The notes under the pieces are model-generated. The model was not told where the DNA came from. It did no database searches and saw only the letters and a list, made by a program, of their open reading frames with translations. From NCBI GenBank assembly GCA_039111635.1, contig JBCAQO010000001.1, positions 1,240,001 to 1,304,000 on the forward strand: 64,000 bases of DNA, given 5' to 3'. The position numbers were made by a program, and so were the translations under genes. This document shows, piece by piece, positions 15,352-25,330 of this stretch. Source of the DNA: Heterobasidion occidentale. Lineage: Eukaryota; Basidiomycota; Agaricomycetes; Russulales; Bondarzewiaceae. The stretch's first letter is position 1. Each line of letters opens with the position of its first letter.

Positions 15352-17929
15352 TCATATATCCGGTGTATCTCTTATCCTTACGCCTGAATCAAAGTGGATT
15401 CGTTTCGCTGGGGCCATCGGCAATGGTAGCATTTCAACGGCTTTGAAAGGAATGTTATGCAAGGCAAAAGACATGGAGTAAGAGATTCTAGCAAGATCAA
15501 ACTTTCCGTCTCTTTCCAATTCCCCTTCCGTCGCTGCGCTTTTCCTCTTTACACTCTCAACGAGACTCTTCAGGGTCTGTTTCTCCGTGCCCTCCGTCGA
15601 CGACGACTTGACATCTGCCCCATCCCCATCTCTCAGTTTCTGACGCTGCCTCTTCGATCGCTCCTGCAACATTGAAGCCATCGCCTTCGTCTTTTTGAAA
15701 CTGTCGACCATCGTTGTCAATGAGTTCATAATGACAGCGGAAAGTTGAAAAGGAGACGCACTGGGGATTGCTCGGATCGATAGCAAAGGTTGGATCCTCG
15801 TGTATCGCCTTGAACCGCTCATCTTGAACGTCGATCGCAAAGTCTTCCTGCACCTCGTTCTCTGCTTCTTCCCCTTTCTTCCCCTTTTTGCCCTTTCTGC
15901 CCTTCTTTTTCTCTGCCTTCACCACGGCTTTCATGTTGAAATGCTTGGGTTCCGCATCAGGCTTGTCGGGACCGACTAGTAGAGTGAGCTCCTCCGTAGT
16001 GGAGGGCTTCCGCGCCTCATGGATGTCCTTCTCGTCGCCCCCTCTCCTGTCGGACTTGCCCTTCTTCTTACCCTTCTCCTTCTTTAGCGCCACGATTGCC
16101 TCACCCTCTTCATCCTCGCTACTGCCCTCTTCAAAGAACTCATCACCTGCCAGGTTACCGGTGCCTGTCGATTTTGTCTTCGACTCGCCTGCGAGGCCTC
16201 CCGCACTCTGTTTCACCTCCTCCTTCCGCTTCTTTCGCTTTTCCTTCATCTTTCGCTGATACTTCTCAAGCGTCGTCTCGTCTCCCTCTTTCGTCCCGCT
16301 CAACGCCGGCATGAACGTCACCTCCATGTCCACATCGCCCTTGTCCTCGCCGTCGAACGCGCCTCCGCCCCAGCCCTCAGGCATGTCCTCGCCCCCTCCA
16401 CCAAGGAGCAGCGCCCGGAGCTTGTCGCGCTCCATCGCCTTTTTTCCCTTGTCCTTTGCGTTGCCGTCGGACTCAGACTCGGAGCCCGAGGAGGACGCAA
16501 TAAAGGCGTGGAAGTCGTTCTCCTCGATTTCTTTCCGCGACAGGTTCCGCCGAGTGACGCGGTCGCGGTCGGGATCGTCCTGGTCCCACGTGAGTTTTAC
16601 TTTTGAGTGACGAAGGGCCTGAAGACGACATCAAAGACTCATATTACTAAAGGCCGGCAGAAAGGCGAGAGAAAGCTCACGTCGGTGACGAAATCGAGAC
16701 CCTTGTAGCCCGTACCCAAGTCATCGCCGAGGGCTTCGTCTCTGTTTGCAAAGTAAGAAAATGAAAAACTAGATGAATAGCTGTGAGCGTAGATACCGAG
16801 GCTCCTCCTCGAACATCATGTCGTCTGGCACGAAACTCAGATCAAATACATTTGCAGAACGCTCGAGTTCAGTTCCCTGCAGTTCATTATAAAGATGTAC
16901 TGCCGCCGGTACCGTGTCGCACTCGACGATCGCATAATAATAACTGATAGATTCACTCGGTTTAACTTATGTAGGTACATTGATGGTGACAGCGACGACT
17001 CACCGTAGTCGTTCGAGTTGGTACTTTCTGAGCGCGTCATCGTCGTATTCATTCGCATCGCCCGTCTCATAGATATTTGTCTCGTTGATATCTTCCTCGT
17101 CCAGTTCGACTTTCTTTTTGAAAAGGTCCACCGGCGGACCTTCTCTCTCCTCTCGCTCCAACCTTTCTTTCCCAAACTGGCTAGGATAGACGCGAACGCT
17201 ACGCACGTTACCGCGAACAACGGGCGCAGAGTTTTTCGATGATTTTGACGAGGACGCGACGACGGGTAAAACGACCGAGGCAAAGATCCTGTATAGATGA
17301 TTGGCGCGCACATAGTCCCAATCGAGGTTGACAACAGCGAGTCGACGCGTCCGAGGCACGTCTTCTTCTTGTTCTTCGTTGGCTACTTCAGCTGCTTTGG
17401 AGTAGGCAGCTGCCTGAGCATCAAGGTCGGCAAAATTAGTCTCATCAAGGTCAACTTCAAGATCTTCATCACTGATGCGGATGGGTTTCGACGGGTCACG
17501 ACCGAGTGTCACGACCCCGCCCGAGTCGCTTTCATCGTCGGAAGCTTTATCGCCGTCGTCCTCGTCGGAGGACTCGAGTAGAGCCTCGCCGCGCGCATAA
17601 TCAGGACCGGCTATGAGCGGCTCTTCATCCTCTTCGTTTTCCAAGCGATAGAAGCGGCGCAGGTTGTCTTTCTCATGCGTATCAGCCAGAGCACGGCCAT
17701 ACTTGTCCACGCGATTGCCTGTCGAGCGCCGTGAAGGGTCGCATCAGATAGATGCAATGAGCGGGATGTAACATAGAAGTGTCGCACCGCCTTTGCCTTT
17801 CTTCCCCTGTTTTTTGTCGTCTTCGAAGATGCTCTTGAAGCGATCGTCGACGACAACCTTAGACTGGTGTTTCTTTGGACGCCTGAAGCGTGGATCGGAC
17901 TTGAGACGGGCAAAGCGAGGGTCAGACAT
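15352..17929 (-). CDS. ESF1: ESF1 pre-rRNA processing protein (NUC153 domain)
   Basis: ESF1 is a nucleolar factor required for early 18S rRNA processing in the small-subunit processome. The start at 17929 (MSDPRFARLKSDPRFRRPK) is typical of the family, and VVVDDRFKSIF follows. Next come long acidic tracts, the conserved core RRLAVVNLDWDYVRANHLY, RVYPSQFGKERL, a region reading FVPDDMMFEEEPRDEA, and KVKLTWDQDDPDR. Lysine-rich linkers lead to the C-terminal NUC153 block QDERFKAIHEDPTFAIDPS and FKKTKAMASMLQERSKR, then LKSLVESVKRK. The frame stays open for about 50 unusual codons beyond that point before the stop at 15352; this tail may be an intron or a lineage-specific extension. It ends only 46 bases from the convergent nudC stop. 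Confidence 0.92.
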
Positions 17930-18087
17930 GGGAGGAGAGGTGTACGTGCAGCAGCCAATCAGGACACGGAGAGGCCAAAAGTGAGCGTGGGAAAGGGGAC
18001 CTCGGGGGACATTGTCCTGGAAACGATCACGTGGCGGGCACTACATCATTTGATTCGGTGTTCGTTTCTGGCTCTTAACCAGGCTCT

Positions 18088-18190
18088 CTCTCTTCCCTTC
18101 ACGCCCCTCCCTTCTTCTCGTCAGTCCCCTTCCCTCCCTCTTTCTCTGTCGTCGTCCAGCTCACTTTTCTCTTTTTTCAGTCCTTTCCTC
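18088..18190 (+). promoter_or_regulatory. Pyrimidine-rich promoter tract of the repeat-peptide gene
   Basis: A long run of C and T with few purines lies 110-215 bases before the start codon at 18303. CT-rich tracts just upstream of the transcription start are common in strongly expressed fungal genes. The tract falls within the 373-base divergent spacer shared with ESF1. Confidence 0.4.
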
Positions 18191-18302
18191 GTTCATACCG
18201 CACAGGCCGCAGGACGACCTCTGAATCATTCTTTCCAGCCTCGATCGGCACCTCTCCACCTCTTGACTGTCATTTAACGCATATCCATTCATACCCGCCG
18301 CC

Positions 18303-19021
18303 ATGTTCACCTCTCGCATCTCCGTCCTCGCCACCTTGGCCGTCGTTTTCGTCAGCCAGGTTGCTGCTGCTCCTATGCCAATGCCCTTGAAGTTCCGGAT
18401 GGGAGTACGTCCTTCATTTTGATGCGATGCTGGCTTTATAAATAGATTTATCCCCTCTATCAGCATGCCATCGGACAGCGTGAGCTCGGTCCTCTCGACA
18501 CCATTCCCGCGTACATCAAGCGGTCTCCCGCTGACGTCAACACCATTCCTGCCGAGGCCGCGACCAAGTCTCCCTCCGGTGTCATAGAAATGTACAAGCG
18601 CGACGATATCCCTGAGGAGGTCCCGACGAAATCTCCGTCAGGCGTAGTCGAAGTATACAAGCGCGATGACGTCAACACCATTCCCGCCGAGGCCGCAACC
18701 AAGTCTCCCTCGGGCACTTTGGAGATGTACAAGCGCGACGATGTGAACGCTATCCCGGCCGAAGCTGCGACCAAATCACCGTCTGGAGTGCTCGAGATGT
18801 ACAAGAGGGAAGACGTCAACGATATCCCCGCTGAGGCTGCGACCAAGTCCCCCGCCGGCGTTATCGAAATTTACAAGCGGGCCGATATCAACGAGATCCC
18901 CGCTGAAGCCGCAACCAAGTCACCGACAGGTGTGCTGGAAGCGTATAAGCGTGACGATGTGAATGCGATCCCCGCTGAGGCCGCGACCAAGTCGCCATCG
19001 GGTGTCCTCGAGATGTACTAG
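18303..19021 (+). CDS. Secreted repeat precursor with Kex2-type sites (KEP-like)
   Basis: Exon 1 (18303-18404) encodes a hydrophobic signal peptide ending near QVAAA, then a short Pro/Met segment. The intron has donor GTACGT and acceptor TATCAG, and exon 2 is 18464-19021. The 219-residue product has a propeptide ending IKR, then seven related units divided by Lys-Arg. Units 3-7 share IPAEAATKSP and nearly the same ending, with LEMY most common. Every unit ends in tyrosine before Lys-Arg, and the final unit stops directly after that tyrosine. Cleavage by a Kex2 protease and trimming by a Kex1-like carboxypeptidase would release peptides of 19-24 residues. No cysteines and no CaaX end are present, so it is not a typical basidiomycete lipopeptide pheromone. 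The architecture matches Kex2-processed repeat proteins described across fungi. The role is unknown. Confidence 0.9.
18524..19018 (+). repeat. Seven tandem peptide-coding units
   Basis: Unit limits including Lys-Arg are 18524-18601, 18602-18664, 18665-18736, 18737-18808, 18809-18880, 18881-18952 and 18953-19018 (the last without Lys-Arg). Units 3-6 are 24 codons each. Unit 2 is shorter (21 codons) and lacks the AEAA core. Unit 1 has 26 codons and starts SPADVN. Confidence 0.95.
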
Positions 19022-19372
19022 ATGGTACGTTATTCACGAACCGTCCATGATATCTGTTTGTTTATCATGTTCATGATAGGCGAAGCGGATGTGATATGAG
19101 CGTCCAGTCTCTTGTTGGTGGCTGGAAGGACACTGGTTTTTCTCACTTGCGGATGTTCTCTTCTTCCTCCTTCGGCTCCATTGTTTGCGTAGATTCGCAT
19201 CCTTTTGTCGTTCATTGTCGTCCTTGGAATTAGAGCGATTGGAGACTGGGAGCTGGAGATCATTCGACTGCGTGAATATTCAGATGTCGCGAAAGAACGC
19301 TGCGATATACATGAGATGTAAGATGACAAGGCTAGTGAGACAAGCTACAACGAATGAGACGCATGGAACAGC

Positions 19373-21399
19373 TTAGTCTGTCTTGTTTACCCAGACCCAT
19401 ACAGCTCCTTGTTCTCCTAATGCAATCACTACCATCCGGTCAACGCTCATACATGCTGCCTGGATGCTTTCTTTGGCTTCTGCTCCCAATTTGCTCTTCC
19501 CTTTCAAGTTTTCAGTCCCAATATCCCATCCTAGCCCCTCTTGCCATATCTTCTCGTCCTCCCCGCTGCCCTCGTCCAGCCGGATCCGCTTGGTCATCTC
19601 CACCACCTCAGGTACATCAAGCGGAAATGGGGGCGGTGCGCGTGGGGCTAAGTCGCCAGCGTTGATGACACGGACAGTGTCCAGAAGCGGGACGAGGATC
19701 AGCGGATCATGGCGATTCGACCTAGTGGTTGGGTCTGTAGATGGCGAGCTGCAGACGGCGAGCTGTATGGAAGACGGTGGAATTCTCTGGGAAAGCTGTG
19801 GATAGGGAAGGGGGACAGTGGATAGTATCTTGAACGACGCTGAGGGAATGTACAATGAGTCGCAGGCACTTGCCTGTTTTAAATGAGACCTACCGCTCTC
19901 TTGATAATCCTAGATGCATACCACGAGTTCACGAGAAGGAATCAATGTTAGTCAAGCCTTGATGGGGGATGCAAGCTTACCGAAGTGCATCCTCTGAGCA
20001 CATCCTGGACGGGATGGTGGGGGAAAAAATCTGTCTGCACTCAACCATTGCCACACCACCATCTCACCTGCTTCTTCTTGCCAGTTTTGTTTACTCACCC
20101 GCAGGAGTATCGGGGCGCTATGCGTCAGGAGTGTGTCGTAACCTATCCTGCAAGCAAAAGAGTCGAATAAGAATTTCTTGGCCGTCACAATGCAAAGGAG
20201 AGCGGATGGAGCGGACCAATTAATGGACAGCACGCGGGACCTGTGGACGCAAGAACTGCTGAAAAGTGGTTTGTCTTCTCGAACAATAGGCGGGTTTTTT
20301 TCCATGACTGGTGGCGGTACGCGCCATATTTTCACAACTCTGTCTAACTGAAAGACCTGGCATCAGCGTCGGCGCGTCGATTACCTAGCGATAGCCTCGC
20401 AGATGATCGACACAGATGCTCACTCCGCATGTCGCGATGATGGGGAGGGTTGGATGGAATGCTGAGCCCAGCACGGCAGCCTGGTGGCCCCCACTCCTAC
20501 CCGCGCACAAGACAGCCACGCACCGCCCGCGATACTGGCCTTCAGGCTCTGTCATGTGGAGAGCATGTGCTGCCCCAGCCCTGTTGGGACCTTCACCAGG
20601 CATCCACACGGGATTATTGGGCTCTTGATTAGGCGAGAGAGTGAGGTCGTAGATACGCGCGGTGAAGTCGCGCGAGGTGGTGCAGAGCAGGTTGGGTGTC
20701 GTCGGATGCACCGTGATCGACGTGATCGCCTACGATGAAGCCTATGTCAGCGAACCAGAGTGAGGGACAAGAGGAGCATGAGAAACACACGCCACCATGG
20801 CCGCGTAGGTAGCCTGCAATTTCGTTGCTGCGTATGTCGACGATGTAGAGCATAGACGTACAGCTGAACACGATAAGAGGGTTCAGGGGATGTTCGCGAT
20901 TTAACGACCAGCAAATGCATTTGATGTCCTCGTTCTGTTTCTGTATATGATGTTGCCTTGCTCATCAGCAATCAAAATATAAATGCGGGGTAATTTGGAG
21001 GATTTACATTGATATCTTGAAGGGTCAGTCGAAACGGGGAACGTGGGGTTGGCGCCAAAGCTTGCAGAATACAGACACTGGCAACACTCCCAACTGCCAC
21101 TGTGCCAGTCCACTGTTGCACCAATTTTCTCCATTGAGGTTTGATTTGTGGAGTGTTATGGCGTCCGCCCCATAGTCTCTCGAGGGAGTCCTCCTCCCAA
21201 GGAAACAAAGCGATACAGTGGCAAGGACGCTTCCTCTGGCTGATCTGTTAGCAGGAGTAAATGCGACAGAAAGGCCGCTGCATCTAGGAGATATGGAACA
21301 GACAGTTAATTTTTGCACGAGTTCGAAGCCATGAGGTCGTCCATGATTTCTATACCATGGGTTCGCAGTGGCATCTGCTTCCGTATCGACGCTTTCCAT
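19373..21399 (-). CDS. EED/ESC-like WD40 subunit of Polycomb repressive complex 2
   Basis: This seven-bladed WD40 protein resembles EED, the PRC2 subunit that reads H3K27 methylation. The visible order parallels EED: CICWSLNREHPLNPLIVF, IVDIRSNEIAGYLRGHGG, ITSITVHPTTPNLLCTTSRD with ARIYD, GHQAAVLGSAFHPTLPIIATCG followed by VKIWRVP, a REDKPLFSS loop, VHRSRVLSINW, and an ending near IQAACMSVDRMVVIALGEQG then VWVW. The insertion before GHQAAV is longer than in animal EED. The stop at 19373 is firm. The start at 21399 (MESVDTEADATANPW) is the likeliest but not certain, because the first blades are split by introns I did not fully resolve. A different WD40 family is possible; the order of landmarks favours EED. 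Confidence 0.7.
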
Positions 21400-22516: not shown

Positions 22517-25330
22517 CTATCTGCAGCTGACATCGTCGAGCGACTTCCTCCATGACGGCTTCCGAATGTCGCTCAACAAAAGTTCTCCAATCTGGAGCTG
22601 TCTGGCAATGATGCTATATCTTTCGTCAGCGGGAAGAATATGTAGAAACCAGAAAAGACTCACCAGCCGCGTTAGCAGAGCCCAAACTTCCTCTTCCCCG
22701 CCGTCATCGGCATCTGCGGAAGAAAGAAATCCAACAATAGCTTCGAAGTCAACTCGAACCTGCGTGCTATCTAAGCTGTCGTCGAGGACAGAGGCCGGGA
22801 CGGATGTGGGGGCAAGAGAGGGAGTAGGAACGGACACAGGCGCCAGCGGAGCTGTAGCCACGGGCTCAACATTAAGCTCAGTAGCAGGCGCAACGGTATG
22901 AAGGTTAGGTCCAGGATTAACAACAGAGACAGGGTCCGAGGTGGAAGGCGCCTCATCGTGCTTTTCGAATTCTGGAAACGAATTTACCATCGGCTCTTCA
23001 GCAAACGGCCCTTCATCGCCCACATGATCGTCTTCCCCCAACAGTTCGCGAACACCTTGTATATCTTCATCGGTGTCGTCGTCATCATCATGAGATATGT
23101 GGTCATTACCATTATGAACTATGTCCTCTTGTGGAGGCCGAGATGTGGCGCTGGTCTTGGCCTCTTCCCATATACCCCTCTTGCTCATGGTTTGTTGCCA
23201 CGATCGGGGTGATGCGGCATCTGTAAATATAGAGGCCGAGTGTTCAAAAGTTTTGAGAGCATACATGACCCAAAGCGGCGCACCTTCACGCTGAGCTTGA
23301 TGCATGCATCCACCAATGAGGTGTTGGGATCGATTTCCATGAGTCGACGGAAATACATCCGCGCATAATTTACTTCTGCATCTGTAAAATAATACTTTCC
23401 GCCACTCATCTCCTTCGTTTCCATCGGTGGAGCAGGGGTAGGTGACCGGTCTCGGTGCAATGAGGGTGTCTTTTGCTTTGTCTTCTTTTGCCTGCCCTTC
23501 GGTTTCGCTTCGGATGGCTTGGTAACCTTGTCCTGGGCAAGCTTTGGTTGGCGACCTCTTTTCTTTTTGGCCGAAGATTCGTTGAGCGAGTATTCCTCAG
23601 GATCGAGCAAACGCCCTTCCGCGATACAGTCATGCACGAAACTGCCTAGAACGACAGGCGTGCCGTGACGCTCAGCCTCGCCACGCAAACTGTGGTATGT
23701 CGTTGAGCGCACACTGAGGACTGCATAAGCTGCGACGGCGATGTCAGCAGTGATGATCCCGCCGTTTTTCTGACGTACGTGACGTCAACAAGATCAGCAA
23801 AAGCGGTGAAGGATCTGCTCACCTTGATGGATATCACGATCTCACGCCTGTTTCGGATATCGATCTGCACGAATATACGCAGAGGACCATTGGCCACTCT
23901 GAAAACGCCTTTTTCATCTCGCCTGGTCTGCGCTTCCTTGGGTGGAAACGTCGCAGATGGTGTGGATGCACTTGAATATAGAGAGGGCGGTCTATCGGAA
24001 GTAACTGGAGGTGGAAGAGGTCGCGAACGTGTCAATGGCGATTTGCGACGGTGCAGACGTGAAACTTGATCAGACTTTTGTTTGCATTTTGATTTCGATG
24101 ATGGTGCCGGGCGAAGCAGAGAAGCGGGGCTGACAGAACGGCCCTTGCGTTTCAGCGAGGGTGTCGGTGGTTCTTGAGACATGAAGATATCTTCAATATC
24201 ACTACCATCCGAACCATTGTCTGGAAGCTGGGGCTGAGCAGGTGATGGAGCTTCTAAAAGCGGATGCTGTGAAGATCCAGCGATGGCTAGTGGGCTTGTA
24301 TAATTCTGTATATTCGGAAATAAGAAGGGTGTGACGTTGGCTGTTGAGGAGGATGCTGAGACAAAGATGCATGGACAGCTTGGAGCTGTGTAGTATCAGC
24401 ACCCTGTTGACGGGCAAGGTGTATAGCAGACTCGACCAGCGAAATGACAGATGGAGCCTGCATCATTGGATTGGGATATTGGAACTGTGGATTGAGCCCA
24501 AACATGTTCGGGATGTGTGCAAAAGGATTAGAGGGTGACAGCTGAGGGAACATGTTGTGCATTGGAGGATAATTGTGGTTGATGAAAGGATGCTGGGGCT
24601 GGGGCTGGAGTTGAGGTTGAGTCTGGGACTGGGACTGAGGCTGGGGCTGGGGCTGGGGCTGGGACTGGGACTGAGGAGGGTGCATTTTCGGCTGAATATG
24701 AGATTGTGTGGACGGAGGCTCAGTTGTCTTGATGCTGCCAGGGGGTCCCGAGGGGGTCGGTCGAGGAGTGGGCAACGGACTTCTTCATAGATGAATGAGT
24801 AGCTTTGACGATACAGAGGAGACTTGCTTACTTTTGGATCTCCTCAGCATACTCGTCCTCGGAATAGATATCTTCTCCGTCGTCTGAAACGCGGAAACCT
24901 CCCCAATCATCGTCTTCAAGCAACAGTCTCCTCTGGGCCACACATCTGCGAGCCCATTGATAGCCTAAGACAACTTTATTCGGATCGGCGGCCCAGTCGC
25001 ATACGAATTGCCTGCCAGATCTTGAATCGGCATCCACCAGGAGAACCGACGCGTCTTTCGGAAAGCGGCATGGTTCTGCTCCGTGATTCTGAGTAGGATG
25101 CCAGATCAGGTCAGAGACTGCCACATTCAATGGTGATGAGAACAACAGACACGGAGGGTGCGGATCAACTTTGGCCTGTTCTCAACACCGCTGATATCCA
25201 AAAAGATGCTCAGTGCTGCACCAGAAGAATCGACAAAGAGACGCATGTTCTCTGTAGCAGGTTGTATTGAGAGTGAGTGCTCCATGATGACTGACGCGAG
25301 CGCGCCACCCGTTGACATTGTTGAATGCAT
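22517..25330 (-). CDS. BRCT protein with Myb-like domain, possible telomere/DNA-repair factor
   Basis: The N-terminal BRCT module begins near MRLFVDSSGAALSIFLDISG and continues through ASVLLVDADS, VVLGYQWARRCVAQRRLL. A Pro/Gln-rich linker follows. A second BRCT-like module contains LRIFVQIDIRNRREIVISIKKNGG and VVLGSFVHDCIAEGRLLDP. A basic region leads to a Myb-like segment, FTDAEVNYARMYFRRLM with IKLSVKMPHHP and SWQQTMSK, resembling the helical domain of fungal Rap1-type proteins. The acidic C terminus ends at 22517. Two in-frame start codons lie at 25330 and 25318; the second has the better context. A telomeric or repair role is inferred from architecture only. A separate Rap1-like gene lies at 32535-34438. 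Confidence 0.7.
24592..24678 (-). repeat. Gln/Pro/Ser low-complexity tract
   Basis: Imperfect six-base repeats (CTGGGG, CTGGGA on the plus strand) encode alternating Q-P and Q-S on the minus strand, within the linker between the BRCT modules of the gene at 22517-25330. Such tracts change length by slippage. Confidence 0.8.

Follow-up and report, generated by a model that had tools for sequence, protein, structure and literature searches.

A gene on the forward strand of Heterobasidion occidentale contig C1 encodes a precursor of seven Tyr-ended units with Lys-Arg between them and, judged by its sequence, this precursor is a new member of the peptide family of Coprinopsis cinerea KEP 497993. 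The window, by which we mean the whole 64,000-nucleotide stretch of DNA that was analysed, covers positions 1,240,001-1,304,000 of C1 in a 45-Mb genome of 159 contigs, and coordinates given below without a contig name refer to it. That the precursor belongs to the same family as KEP 497993 and releases linear peptides is in our estimation quite probable, and the chance that these peptides have the role of an extracellular signal is about even. What is new is this member itself, its missing pyroglutamate start and the recurring end of its propeptide. The relatives from one tremellomycete and one ascomycete are likewise new with respect to the C. cinerea study (Vogt et al. 2022; PMC9769878), the available text of which does not mention them.

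Gene model and repeat units

The precursor gene consists of two predicted exons (18303-18404 and 18464-19021, plus strand) with a product of 219 residues. The ATG lies at 18303, and the 34 codons of exon 1, joined in frame to exon 2, encode a signal-like N terminus (about residues 1-23, MFTSRISVLATLAVVFVSQVAAA) and the start of the propeptide. This N terminus is hydrophobic and ends in AAA, the signal peptide being called by eye. The 59-nt intron at 18405-18463 (GTACGT...TATCAG) is a prediction, with 17 GT-AG pairs that would preserve the frame. The chosen intron retains the entire signal-like segment, and the resulting leader aligns over its full length (54 residues) with that of P0029, one of the relatives described below. 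Since the array of units lies wholly inside exon 2, it is independent of the choice of splice junction. The remainder of the propeptide occupies 18464-18523 in this splice model and ends in GPLDTIPAYIKR, so that PLDTIPAYIKR stands upstream of the seven-unit array. A first-pass annotation, made from the sequence alone, had described a propeptide ending in IKR, which agrees with the YIKR of the gene model.

The seven units follow one another on the plus strand, the first six each completed by KR. Unit 1 (SPADVNTIPAEAATKSPSGVIEMY, 24 residues) spans 18524-18601 with its KR, unit 2 (DDIPEEVPTKSPSGVVEVY, 19 residues and the shortest) 18602-18664, and units 3 to 6, of 22 residues each, 18665-18736 (DDVNTIPAEAATKSPSGTLEMY), 18737-18808 (DDVNAIPAEAATKSPSGVLEMY), 18809-18880 (EDVNDIPAEAATKSPAGVIEIY) and 18881-18952 (ADINEIPAEAATKSPTGVLEAY). 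Unit 7 (18953-19021) repeats the 22 residues of unit 4 (DDVNAIPAEAATKSPSGVLEMY), and the stop codon (19019-19021) comes directly after its Tyr with no trailing Lys-Arg. Tyr is C-terminal in all seven units and Lys-Arg is present at every junction, just as the first-pass annotation had described. Its expectation that all copies would share an identical C terminus is also borne out for this precursor without further trimming, and its figure of 22 residues for the predicted peptides is right for five of the seven units and wrong for unit 1 and unit 2. The KEP class (Umemura 2020; PMC7329392) is defined by layout and not by descent, as at least three near-identical repeats with Kex2 sites between them; as described there, and as far as tested, the window precursor with its seven units fits this definition.

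The units begin, in order, with S, D, D, D, E, A and D; the first two residues are SP in unit 1 and DD, DD, DD, ED, AD and DD in units 2-7. The predicted peptides are acidic, with a net charge of -2 to -4 and GRAVY values of -0.07 to -0.47, and contain no Cys; indeed there is none in the whole 219-residue precursor, as had been noted earlier. Their calculated M+H values are 2278.09 (units 4 and 7), 2310.08, 2302.14, 2260.13, 2448.20 and 2060.01. When the units are compared over their 18-residue cores, with all pairs pooled, pS is 0.72 and pN is 0.13. Synonymous differences are therefore near saturation while non-synonymous change is rare, which indicates that the repeats are not fresh duplications and that the peptide sequence is being kept. 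Tandem Repeats Finder describes the array DNA with a period of 72 (72% matches, score 287) and with a period of 144 (75% matches, score 390).

When exon 2 was modelled with AlphaFold2 using 18 of the 29 relatives, the mean pLDDT was 48 and the pTM 0.20, with no confident fold for the array. A Pfam scan of the precursor returned nothing above the cut-off; its matches, the best at 19.7 bits against 22.9, carry unrelated names and were taken as chance. The same applies to a solved-structure match of part of the array to FLS2, with a best E of 0.72. Rfam at gathering thresholds and a tRNA scan found nothing across the window.

A conserved core and its relatives

The core of the window units, IPAExxxKSxxGxIxxY, matches C. 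cinerea KEP 497993, and the earlier view of the peptide as one that is not recognised is therefore not borne out. To limit circularity, the test profile drew its 67 units only from the window and 13 proteins. Against this profile the C. cinerea core reaches 38.4 bits, compared with a maximum of 16.3 bits in 100,000 shuffles, and the remaining 80,626 stop-free 17-mers in the six frames of the window give at most 7.4 bits. Set against unit 1, the C. cinerea core is identical at 11 of 17 residues. In C. cinerea, mass spectrometry detected pyro-QIPAELPTKSINGNIEPY of KEP 497993, which is absent from the knock-out, and the products are described as linear (PMC9769878). KEP 497993, its agaricomycete homologs and the window precursor have in common the repeats between Kex2 sites and the core IPAE..TKS..G.IE.Y, and the window precursor is predicted to share secretion and the Tyr C terminus found in vivo in C. 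cinerea. The window units differ from KEP 497993 in starting with Asp, Glu, Ala or Ser and not with Gln, and hence in having no pyroglutamate cap. They also carry an N-terminal extension such as DDVN, their Tyr adjoins Lys-Arg directly, and they form an array of seven units of which five are of one length. A literature search found no paper with the string IPAEAATKS, and none with IPAE at the start of a word together with basidiomycete and Kex2; in the available text of PMC9769878, IPAE sits inside longer strings.

Searches with increasingly broad queries extended the family. The window protein alone, with scoring limited to the 7,993 candidates with most words in common, yielded 4 relatives. 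A profile of the window and these first 4 yielded 13 from 7,994 scored candidates, and a chimera of natural cores, which held the published C. cinerea peptide and cores from the hits themselves, yielded 29 with the earlier 13 among them. Named relatives come from Termitomyces, Hymenopellis radicata, Lentinula edodes, L. lateritia, Desarmillaria tabescens, Amanita muscaria, Serendipita vermifera, Mrakia frigida and Rhypophila decipiens, and the other 20 of the 29 from contigs of about 0.9-2 kb. Mrakia is a tremellomycete and Rhypophila an ascomycete, the lineages of four named relatives having been checked, and the searches thereby extend the core beyond the agaricomycetes. The R. decipiens protein (P0027; 103 residues, E 2.4e-5) contains three cores, IPAEVAVKSDASGKAVPF, VPAEVATKSDVNGNAVPF and IPAEVAVRSGADGIPVPF, and its occurrence in a sordariomycete may reflect old inheritance, transfer or contamination alike. 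In the literature as available to us, the family has one precursor with peptides found in vivo, that of C. cinerea. The member in the window is very regular and lacks the pyroglutamate cap.

A pattern script located 129 units across 30 proteins, of which the window's is one. Its fixed nine-position pattern (at least seven hits, with E/D at position 4 and Y/F at position 17 obligatory) was composed after the C. cinerea peptide had been seen, which is a small leak. With per-protein weighting, the core frequencies are 88% for I1, 90% for P2, 89% for K8, 77% for S9 and 97% for G12, a conservation that is partly built in because the relatives were picked by their cores. E4 reaches 98%, Y17 88% and F17 12% at the two positions where the finder requires E/D and Y/F. 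The exact end at the core Tyr is shared by 21 of the 30 proteins, the window's among them; the other nine end differently, P0029 stopping mid-core and others closing, for example, with KRTI, GRR or RRD. In 85 of the 129 units a single residue separates Tyr/Phe from the dibasic site; in 16 there is none, in 1 there are two and in 2 there are three, while 4 units have no near site and the remaining 21 are terminal. The Tyr-Lys-Arg junction of the window is thus the minority form, and a bare Tyr end would need extra trimming in most of the relatives' units. A Gln start is present in 74 of 109 scorable family units and absent from all seven window units.

The leaders show likeness as well. That of the window is identical to that of P0029 at 24 of 54 residues (E 1e-13 for a single comparison). 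With patterns that were composed after inspecting the leaders, V[IL]GVR-like leaders were counted in 14 of the 30 proteins, Serendipita included, and [IV]-x-x-Y-[IVM]-KR upstream of the array in 6 of the 30, namely the window and five relatives, of which Termitomyces is one.

Beyond KEP 497993, the Ustilago repellent peptides and alpha-factor-like precursors that had been named for comparison hold as analogies, but they are not the closest relatives. Ascomycete alpha-factor precursors share the pro-region, the tandem peptide copies and the Kex2/Kex1 logic, and differ in giving no sequence match among the relatives found or in Pfam. The window precursor is also without their repeated STE13 X-Ala/X-Pro spacers after Lys-Arg, only unit 1 starting with SP. 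Basidiomycetes use a-type mating pheromones, and the available text of the same source (Le Marquer 2019; PMC6339444) mentions Rep1 and names no motif of the present kind. Type G-1/P-2 of Umemura, described as Tyr-rich, present in 49 genera of two phyla and without DUF3328 near by (PMC7329392), may be the window's peptide family.

Proposed processing and possible function

The proposed route begins with the precursor being cut after Lys-Arg by Golgi kexin, after which Kex1 would trim the cut peptides. The products would leave the cell as linear peptides, 19-24 residues long and with Tyr at the end. Once released, they would likely act as an extracellular signal. The genome has one P_proprotein match, on contig C2, whose catalytic exon best matches yeast Kexin 1ot5 (E 1.8e-71) and then furin; there are also 28 Peptidase_S10 matches, a family-level count, and three adjacent DPPIV_N matches. 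Taking the layout together with the C. cinerea data, secretion and cleavage in this species are very probable. The first-pass annotation is partly supported. Its repeat precursor of Kex2 type with a linear product holds, as do the shared Tyr end and, as far as UstYa/DUF3328 matches go, the lack of a modifying enzyme near by, but the peptide is not an unknown one.

There are several possible explanations for what the released peptides do. We prefer an extracellular signal, since the peptide sequence persists across great distances whereas spacers and the number of copies change. Agaricales, a tremellomycete and one ascomycete have almost identical cores, as if these were read by a conserved partner, and several copies per precursor would raise the dose, as in alpha-factor; a signalling role is the weaker inference that both suggest.

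The main rival to a self-signal is that the peptides are processed in the same way and act outward on competitors, predators or a host, which is possible but to our minds doubtful. The conservation of the core across orders, classes and two phyla argues against it, as typical effectors are fast-changing. In favour of outward action, axenic cultures of the C. cinerea knock-out of KEP 497993 grew and fruited without a phenotype, and the authors of that study prefer a function in the biotic environment (PMC9769878). However, synthetic C. cinerea peptides had no antibacterial activity against any of the five bacterial strains reported in that study.

It is very unlikely that the peptides are structural or surface-active components of the wall like the Ustilago repellent Rep1. 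Rep1 is a secreted basidiomycete precursor with Kex2-cut repeats, and the window precursor is predicted to have the same general build. The predicted products are nevertheless acidic and not hydrophobic, with the charge and GRAVY values given above and no Cys, so that the surface option raised earlier is not favoured in the sense of a surface-coating repellent; the two are set apart by these properties. Nor is the pattern of E4, K8, G12 and Y17 demanded by bulk hydrophobicity, and the counterparts of C. cinerea are present in culture fluid, mycelium and caps (PMC9769878).

A dikaritin-type RiPP, in which the core Tyr would be cross-linked by a UstYa oxidase, is suggested by the Tyr-ended Kex2 repeat precursor and by 19 UstYa matches in the genome, on the five contigs C2, C7, C10, C11 and C14. 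We regard it as extremely improbable, given that none of the 19 UstYa/DUF3328 matches lies on C1 (in a first-look search that may miss split exons), compared with a mean distance of 3.09 genes reported by Umemura (PMC7329392), and that the C. cinerea products are linear (PMC9769878). The earlier remark that no modifying enzyme is adjacent is supported to this extent. Equally remote is an uncut repetitive secreted protein with incidental Lys-Arg: cleavage in this species is indeed deduced, but Lys-Arg stands at every junction, the stop codon comes straight after Tyr without a trailing Lys-Arg, 21 of 30 proteins have the same end, no confident fold was obtained (mean pLDDT 48) and C. cinerea contains the free peptides (PMC9769878).

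For an extracellular signal, a peptide kept so widely should have a conserved partner. A genome search for the STE2 family gave one match below the cut-off, from C8:2947791 onwards (23.7 bits against 27.2). For the spliced 7TM model of 400 aa, Pfam at E up to 1 reports STE2 and nothing else (E 9.6e-5, with 22.2 bits against a cut-off of 27.2), over profile positions 35-191 of 280; the protein has six clear hydrophobic segments and a seventh by eye. At the same limit its reversed control had no Pfam match, and a block-shuffled control had two unrelated matches (E 0.16 and 0.19) and no STE2. Comparison of the C8 protein with solved structures gave no STE2 match. Paralogs lie at six other places in the genome, C4:1591183 and C8:3161792-3162793 among them; the paralog scan covered the other four (three partial), and with the same E limit Pfam matched none of these. 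A 2025 survey describes STE2-class receptors as confined to Ascomycota (PMC12842992). With one weak match in five, the STE2-like protein as a putative receptor of the peptide is only a lead. A bolder hypothesis, which we hold to be rather unlikely, is an ancient peptide hormone of the Dikarya: one 17-residue signal would be used by mushrooms, basidiomycete yeasts and at least one ascomycete and be read by a conserved receptor, perhaps a divergent STE2-like 7TM protein of the kind reported as missing from basidiomycetes, in which an alpha-factor-like system would then persist for a non-mating use. The most constant positions, E4, K8, G12 and Y17, are the residues to alter in binding or response assays, and if a receptor is found, the role of basidiomycete Kex2-repeat peptides becomes directly testable. 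As a separate observation, 19 STE3 pheromone-receptor matches form a tandem array at C7:1175596-1197518, as in an agaricomycete mating locus; together with the leader type, this array points to an agaricomycete. A search for 5.8S rRNA gave no match.

Genomic setting

A six-frame genome search with the array found the window locus and a copy on contig C130 (27.9 kb), both with E 2.7e-98, besides a single weak match (E 0.04); no second gene of the same kind was found in this search beyond the C130 duplicate. C130:9779-13347 pairs with window positions 16953-20521, and over these 3.57 kb there are 31 substitutions between the two, along with three indels of 2 bp each (18252, 18351 and 20016). Of the substitutions, 28 fall downstream, within 1,500 bases, and 2 upstream, within 1,350. 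Within the gene, the C130 copy has a single substitution, synonymous, at 18790, and its exon 1 lacks 2 bp (18351-18352), a deletion that shifts the frame inside the signal-like segment. We take this copy as the other haplotype of the locus, with the deletion being either a null allele or an assembly error.

The upstream neighbour, divergent on the minus strand at 15560-17929 with approximate exon limits, encodes an ESF1-like nucleolar protein (Pfam matches to NUC153 and RRM_ESF1). Its likely start at 17929, minus strand, reads MSDPRF, which we take to be the beginning of an ESF1 protein. The downstream neighbour, convergent on the minus strand at 19376-20729, is part of a likely WD40 protein (Pfam WD40 at 20388-20729, 27.3 bits, cut-off 27), and its frame 19376-19909 gave no Pfam match. 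Other genes of the window have Pfam matches to the ribosomal S9/S16 and L4 families, Rad51, FAD-linked oxidase and pfkB kinase. The scan covered 20 of 97 open frames (at least 90 codons, overlaps removed), 8 of the 20 being without any match; as far as looked, the surroundings are housekeeping, with no biosynthetic cluster among the frames scanned.

Elsewhere in the genome, UstYa clusters at C14:269686-364307 and C7:2417409-2423783 are possible dikaritin-type gene clusters. Upstream of the precursor ATG, window positions 18200-18274 read AQAAGRP...RSAP in another frame, and residues 31-55 of P0029, upstream of its Met, read AQAAGRP...RNSAP; given this resemblance, the stretch is probably 5' untranslated DNA that has been conserved in a related fungus. 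At 24592-24676, the window contains a tandem GCTGGG-type repeat (period 6/36) in a 165-codon open frame on the minus strand.
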